A stretch of DNA of 64,000 bases. It comes from a bacterium. GTDB lineage: Bacteria > T1Sed10-126. Location: positions 32,066-96,065 of the forward strand of contig PWHN01000050.1 of NCBI GenBank assembly GCA_003554945.1, read 5' to 3'. The translations under genes and the position numbers were made by a program. Shown piece after piece: positions 43,739 through 62,659 of this stretch. The first letter of the stretch is position 1. Every line of letters starts with the position of its first letter. The notes below the pieces were generated by a model, which was not told the origin of the DNA, made no database searches, and saw only the letters and a list, made by a program, of their open reading frames with translations.

Positions 43739-43843
43739 CCGAAGCACTTAATTCAGCAGTTGCAAGCAAGATAGCTCATATCTTTCTCTATGCGTTTATT
43801 TTTGCTCAAATAGTTATTGACCCCTGCTTTGTTAAAAACGGTA

Positions 43844-43981
43844 GTTCTGAGGGCCGATGTGTTTCTGACGGATTTATAACGACCTCTTACCCCAGGATGG
43901 GGTTGGTTTGAGGTCGTTATACCTCGGAAGTGGCCTGGAGGGCCACGAGAATGATGTCAGAAATATATCGGTCCTCAGAAC
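43844..43981 (+). ncRNA. Structured RNA-like element, copy 1 (HEARO/omega-RNA-like)
   Basis: Nested stems on the plus strand: outer GTTCTGAGGGCCGAT with ATCGGTCCTCAGAAC (15 bp, one G-U); TTTCTGAC with GTCAGAAA (43862-43869/43956-43963); ATAACGACCTC with GAGGTCGTTAT (43876-43886/43910-43920) capped by CCCC/GGGG; GTGGCC with GGCCAC (43930-43946). Unpaired blocks GGATTTATA (43870), TATACCTCGGA (43918) and GAGAATGA (43947) are shared almost exactly with the element at 62265-62392, while stem sequences differ and still pair. No reading frame and no IscB gene nearby. The structure is strongly supported; the family name is from memory. Confidence 0.7.
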
Positions 43982-44059
43982 GGGGAAACCGCAAAATTAT
44001 GGTAAATATCTATAACCTTTGATTAGCCCGGTTTCAGCATGGGTTTCAACAGAACAAAG

Positions 44060-62169: not shown

Positions 62170-62264
62170 CTTTACTCCATCCTCTGCCACAATTTTCATT
62201 ACACATTATCTCTTTTTCAAACGGCTCTGTTGAAATCCTTTTTACTATCTAAGAGAGCAAATTA

Positions 62265-62392
62265 GGCTACTCGAAGGTGTTTGATGGATTTATAGCTGGC
62301 AATAGATCCTGGAGGATCTGATTATTGCCAGATATACCTCGGAGATTGACCGGAGGCCAATCAAGAATGAGTCCCAACACCTTTGAGTAGCC
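62265..62392 (+). ncRNA. Structured RNA-like element, copy 2 (HEARO/omega-RNA-like)
   Basis: Outer stem GGCTACTCGAAGGTGTT (62265-62281) with AACACCTTTGAGTAGCC (62376-62392), 17 bp with one G-U. Inside: GGATTTATA (62286-62294), stem CTGGCAAT/ATTGCCAG (62296-62303/62324-62331) capped by AGATCC/GGATCT, then TATACCTCGGA (62333-62343), stem GATTGACC/GGCCAATC (62344-62362) and AAGAATGA (62363-62370). Same unpaired blocks as copy 1 but different stems. Lies in the divergent gap between two glycosyltransferase genes. Confidence 0.7.
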
Positions 62393-62507
62393 GTCTTCAG
62401 CTCAAACTACGCCAAACATTTTTGATACTTCATTTTTCCATATTTTGCCTATATTTGCAAAGGTAACTGATTTCACCGGTCTCCACTGGAAACAAAATTA
62501 ATGACCA

Positions 62508-62516: not shown

Positions 62517-62659
62517 CCGTTTCCCATGCATAAACTAAAGTTGCTCAGTGCTTTCGCTCGATGAAAGGGAGACCAGGTCTTATTTCGGAATGAGAAAATA
62601 AGCTATAGGTTATCCTGCTTACAAACCGCAAAATTTTAGTCCAAAAGGTGTTCCATTTT

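Follow-up and report, generated by a model that had tools for sequence, protein, structure and literature searches.

A covarying three-way-junction element carried by MITEs in a bacterial genome

Two segments of a 64,000-nucleotide stretch of bacterial DNA (the window; contig PWHN01000050.1, positions 32,066 to 96,065) share unpaired sequence blocks in the same order, and the stems around these blocks have different sequences that still pair, which raises the question of what kind of folded element they represent. The blocks, stems and coordinates of copy A (43844-43981) and copy B (62265-62392) are as set out in a preliminary description of the locus, and both elements fold as three-way junctions (Table 1). 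The folding energy of copy A is -84.3 kcal/mol (z -10.8) and that of copy B -59.8 kcal/mol (z -7.0), with none of 200 shuffled sequences folding as well in either case. Folded without constraints, copy B reaches its energy minimum with hairpin P3 opened in favour of an alternative pairing, so that its three-way junction rests on comparison and not on energy alone. The inner hairpin of copy B, GATTGACC/GGCCAATC, earlier described as an 8-bp stem, does pair but has one A-C mismatch in the window copy; in other copies of the same sequence family (family B), which carry GATTGGCC there, the 8 bp are perfect.

Table 1. Parts of the two three-way-junction elements and of the MITEs around them, in window coordinates
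Feature	Position	Strand	Basis or remark
Copy A three-way-junction core, P1 to P1'	43844..43981	+	R2 match 43860-43964, 86.5 bits, E 8e-25
Copy A outer stem P1, 5' strand	43844..43869	+	pairs with 43956-43981
Copy A junction strand GGATTT	43870..43875	+	last T is first pair of P2; nearly invariant
Copy A hairpin P2, 3'-side bulge, GGA loop	43875..43921	+	covariation
Copy A junction strand ACCTCGGA	43921..43928	+	first A paired in P2; nearly invariant
Copy A hairpin P3, GGA loop	43930..43946	+	covariation
Copy A junction strand GAGAATGA	43947..43954	+	nearly invariant
Copy A outer stem P1, 3' strand	43956..43981	+	folding
Family-A MITE left arm, terminal repeat worn in copy A	43759..43843	+	alignment with other family-A copies
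Family-A MITE right arm, worn end	43982..44001	+	alignment with other family-A copies
Copy B three-way-junction core	62265..62392	+	R2 match 62276-62380, 97.3 bits, E 3e-28
Copy B junction strand GGATTT	62286..62291	+	nearly invariant
Copy B hairpin P2	62291..62336	+	covariation
Copy B junction strand ACCTCGGA	62336..62343	+	nearly invariant
Copy B hairpin P3, one A-C mismatch	62344..62362	+	comparison with other family-B copies
Copy B junction strand AAGAATGA	62363..62370	+	nearly invariant
Family-B MITE left terminal inverted repeat GGCTCTGTTGAAATCC	62223..62238	+	family-B terminal repeat comparison
Family-B MITE left arm	62239..62264	+	family alignment
Family-B MITE right arm	62393..62413	+	worn; right terminal repeat not recognisable here

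The consensus runs P1, C GGATTT, P2, ACCTCGGA, P3, GAGAATGA and P1', about 140 nt in all, with a 3'-side bulge of 3-4 nt in P2 and GGA usual in both hairpin loops. Among 41 aligned matches from six genomes the unpaired junction strands are nearly invariant, and all three stems differ completely in sequence between families and keep their pairing. Paired cells made up 93% of the first alignment and 84.6% of a wider one; in the 41-match alignment they reached 85.9% against 31-43% in slid controls, a figure that leans towards the structure because the alignment had been fitted to it. The covariation score of the same alignment was 0.623, compared with 0.084-0.153 for slid structures, and none of 500 shuffles reached it. 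The outer stem supplies an independent test, since covariance model R1 was built from P2, P3 and the junction strands and left P1 out (R2 is a wider model): the P1 flanks of a copy pair with each other at a mean of -30.5 kcal/mol, whereas flanks mixed between copies reach -9.5 (sd 4.0). Covariation and the independent pairing of P1 thus support the earlier proposal of compensatory change in a functional-looking RNA fold, and the wider set of copies excludes a lack of covariance support.

The window copies are two of many. With a cut-off of E<=0.1, R1 detected 63 of them in the own genome, 57 with E below 1e-6, so that the absence of further copies is likewise excluded; an exact two-block pattern gave 30 matches there and its reversed control 0. 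Differences among the stems define at least nine sequence families. Many copies sit at contig ends, as expected because repeats break an assembly. Nesting and recombination are frequent among the copies: some cores lie inside a hairpin of another core, and whole hairpins have been exchanged between families, as in L013/L064, a family-A element with the P3 of family B. In four family-B copies (L010, L019, L022 and L102) the same long hairpin, CCGAGCACTCAAT...ATTGAGTGCTCGG, whose loop measures about 50 nt, stands in place of P3, and the junction strands are kept. Five copies of family G (L103-L107) have a P3 loop enlarged by additional sequence (GGACCATTTAGCAATGGAGGCTTTTTCC...), and several of them end at contig ends, so that a longer repeat may be inserted in this loop.

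The conserved blocks had been likened to HEARO RNAs, the omega-RNAs of IscB nucleases, and the present element resembles them as an RNA-like fold with conserved junction blocks in a multi-copy, mobile setting. In published work (PMC9755519), HEARO RNAs serve as guides whose 5' spacer is programmable. However, the corresponding Rfam model RF02033 (211 positions, gathering threshold 83 bits), run over the entire own genome at E<=1, gave no match, and it found nothing in the window, at eight own-genome copies (E<=10) or at the foreign copies (E<=5). The element is shorter, at about 140 nt, is closed by its own outer stem and differs in architecture, and the sequence 5' of that stem, where a guide had been placed, is in families A and B a conserved MITE arm ending in an inverted repeat, which leaves no guide position. 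The earlier remark that no HNH nuclease gene lies near either copy agrees with the six genes tested beside the two copies, none of which matched an HNH family. The HEARO assignment therefore falls, and it is highly improbable that the element is a stand-alone HEARO or omega-RNA serving an IscB or IsrB nuclease with its guide 5' of P1. Rfam 15 as a whole holds no family matching the window, the eight own-genome copies or the foreign copies, and the element therefore appears to be a structured RNA, or folded DNA, that mobile elements carry and that has not been described before. Three-way-junction ribozymes and riboswitches, such as the hammerhead, also set variable stems around a conserved junction, although their junction sequences differ from those seen here and no Rfam model matches.

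The carriers of this fold are small, multi-copy MITE-like elements of about 200-240 bp with terminal inverted repeats and no coding sequence. Terminal inverted repeats, a length below 500 bp and the lack of an ORF were found for families A, B, C and E and for the family of the foreign genome G285, and a long ORF across the core is absent in nearly all copies. Family-B elements measure about 235 bp, end in the repeats GGCTCTGTTGAAATCC and are flanked by 8-bp target duplications identical at 5.2 of 8 positions against 2.4 by chance; family C, with ends TCACGTTCCGCACCCT, gives 6.0 of 8 against 2.0 (two copies), and family E, whose ends are related to those of family B, has a perfect 8-bp duplication in one copy. 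Families A, G and H have a common end type, CTAAAGTTTTGCG, and the G285 family has long terminal repeats of its own; a target duplication was not seen in the statistics for family A and was not resolved for the G285 family. As the families differ in their ends, one core rides in at least three unrelated terminal-repeat types. The own genome holds 39 family-B terminal repeats in a draft assembly that breaks at repeats, and the 30 loci read disclosed no autonomous partner and no transposase-sized insert between such repeats. Three family-B deletion derivatives of 66-77 bp (L149, L161 and L168) keep both terminal repeats without an intact core. Two fragments in the window also belong here. A solo right end just downstream of copy A (44021-44055), like the right arm of family B (AGCCCGGTTTCAGCATGGGTTTCAACAGAAC), is the worn remnant of a second MITE, and on the minus strand at about 62533-62640 a family-A-type left end (CTAAAATTTTGCGGTTTGTAAGC) is followed by a core remnant that partly keeps its outer stem (CTTATTTTCTCATTC / GAAATAAG) and has lost P2 and P3.

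In size, terminal inverted repeats, target duplications, intergenic position, nesting, copy number and lack of coding sequence, these elements resemble the prokaryotic MITEs known to give structured transcripts, Correia, ERIC, RUP, BOX and QMITE, and their setting, nesting included, is ordinary by the criteria of a review (PMC10969869). Unlike those MITEs, they have one core with a near-invariant junction in common across unrelated terminal repeats and unrelated genomes, and this core has changed less than the terminal-repeat arms have; the open-access literature searched yielded no account of such a junction conserved among MITEs. The element is real, covarying, mobile and undescribed, and its class, a MITE-borne three-way junction, is reasonably clear.

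Beyond the own genome, R1 was run over 192 genomes and R2 over 386, and convincing copies were recovered from five, all of the same domain and outside the host's family: G176 (one copy), G285 (six), G124 (four), G297 (one) and G068 (four, weaker). A total of 379 of the 386 sampled genomes gave no match, no copy turned up in G001, which belongs to the same family and is closest to the own genome, and the phylum samples of G176 (3 genomes) and G285 (19 genomes) yielded no further positive; this patchy distribution fits mobility. Across the five foreign genomes the junction strands are the same and the stems are unrelated in sequence, and the four copies in G124 have four different P1 sequences, so that P1 matters as a stem and not as a sequence. 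Titration of CsrA, which GGA in both hairpin loops might suggest, was considered: the loops of the copies in G124 and G297 are without GGA, which is thus not a defining feature. A 29-bit match in G290 was taken as chance, as it lacks the junction blocks and looks coding, and so was the sole exact-pattern match in the contig collection (L036, labelled a Bacteroides MAG), an unrelated sequence without the fold. Viral contigs gave no match to two strict patterns and 18 to a looser one, none of which matched the covariance model; distant blastn searches of plasmids with copy A and of phages with copy B found none, and viral contigs searched with the neighbouring dehydrogenase likewise gave nothing.

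These foreign copies bear on whether the pairing reflects selection at all. Quasi-palindrome template switching or gene conversion could keep stems paired, in which case the covariation would be a mutational by-product without structural selection, and the swapped hairpins of L013/L064 and the frequency of nested, recombined copies speak for such processes. Neither process, however, can maintain unpaired junction strands, yet these are near-identical in five foreign genomes with unrelated stems, and the arms adjoining P1 have not been homogenised, making this explanation improbable.

Within families, the core is far better conserved than its surroundings. Divergence from consensus in core and arms, respectively, is 3.5 vs 14.8% in family A, 6.0 vs 17.1% in family B and 12.5 vs 30.1% in family G (Fisher p below 1e-19 in each, although sites within copies are not fully independent), and singletons, used to approximate change after the latest transposition, are depleted 3- to 6-fold in the core. 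The rise in divergence begins at the P1 edge, which marks the conserved unit as P1 to P1'. Selection on the copies, gene conversion confined to the core, or a core younger than the MITE could each produce this pattern, and they are not separable here. The last of these would apply if the core with P1 were a recent mobile unit homing into older dispersed MITEs; besides explaining why the core is far less diverged than the arms, homing would sit well with the sharpness of the rise at the P1 boundary, with nesting inside the hairpins of other cores and with the four P1 sequences of G124. Against this, P1 is conserved within a family and occupies one fixed site in its MITE, and the terminal-repeat loci include no clean empty site, just deletion derivatives of 66-114 bp. 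Homing, which is partly compatible with the explanation preferred below, is rather doubtful.

Whether the fold works as RNA or as DNA was approached through strand asymmetries. Within families 35 G-T pairs stand against 17 A-C mismatches, and across families 25 against 12, an excess of about 2:1 among related copies that are not independent, and this favours the plus strand as the folded one, with wobble tolerated. Crude ORF calls place nearly all of the copies examined between genes and mark three as overlapping an ORF; one of these three calls (L119) is an ORF-caller error in GC-rich sequence. On the same crude calls, the plus strand is antisense to flanking co-directional genes 22 times and sense 7 times (8 with L119 corrected; p about 0.01-0.02), and the bias weakens to about 16 antisense vs 7 sense when copies of the own genome are counted by themselves. 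As the stems are equally strong on both strands, a real orientation bias would mean strand-specific reading of the junction. No promoter-like site was detected near copy A, and near copy B none reads into the core from upstream.

The main rival to an RNA-level module is a fold that works as single-stranded DNA, recognised in replication or transposition and never needing transcription. REP/IS200-type hairpins are recognised in this way by Y1 (HUH) transposases, and REP/REPIN sequences with their RAYT (Y1) partners resemble the present elements in being dispersed intergenic hairpins. The own genome encodes five Y1_Tnp proteins of 290-321 aa (L031-L035), the copies examined are mobile and sit wholly or almost wholly between genes, a promoter is not evident near copies A and B, and folded DNA would impose strand-specific constraint just as well. 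Unlike REP/REPIN, however, the element forms a three-way junction and not hairpin doublets, its terminal repeats and target duplications of about 8 bp are the signature of DDE and not of Y1 transposition, no core blocks occur within 1.5 kb of the five Y1 genes, and the excess of G-T over A-C favours tolerated wobble. From these sequence patterns we infer that the plus strand probably acts at the RNA level, with single-stranded DNA a genuine but lesser possibility.

Taken as a whole, the observations are best explained, with a probability of roughly 0.55, by a dispersed non-autonomous MITE whose selected part is the three-way-junction core of about 140 nt acting as RNA. DDE-type transposases from insertion sequences would move copies of this MITE in trans, and the plus strand, transcribed from the element or its neighbourhood, would act as a folded RNA whose junction (CGGAUUU / ACCUCGGA / GAGAAUGA) may be recognised by a factor common to different hosts or may itself be active. 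Because the core is independent of transposase type, it is proposed to serve the persistence of the element after insertion, possibly through the behaviour of transcripts that enter it, and not the cut-and-paste reaction. It is enticing to speculate further that the junction is active, either self-cleaving or binding a widely conserved factor, and defines a new class of selfish RNA spreading among distant bacteria in unrelated MITE backbones, but this we regard as unlikely.

The covariance model obtained is absent from Rfam, and the conserved junction raises the question of what recognises CGGAUUU / ACCUCGGA / GAGAAUGA. Bacterial MITEs are usually seen as defective remnants of insertion sequences, with the ends as their sole needed parts. 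That the ends diverge here and the internal fold persists across several unrelated end types and distant hosts suggests that some MITEs carry a functional nucleic-acid module.
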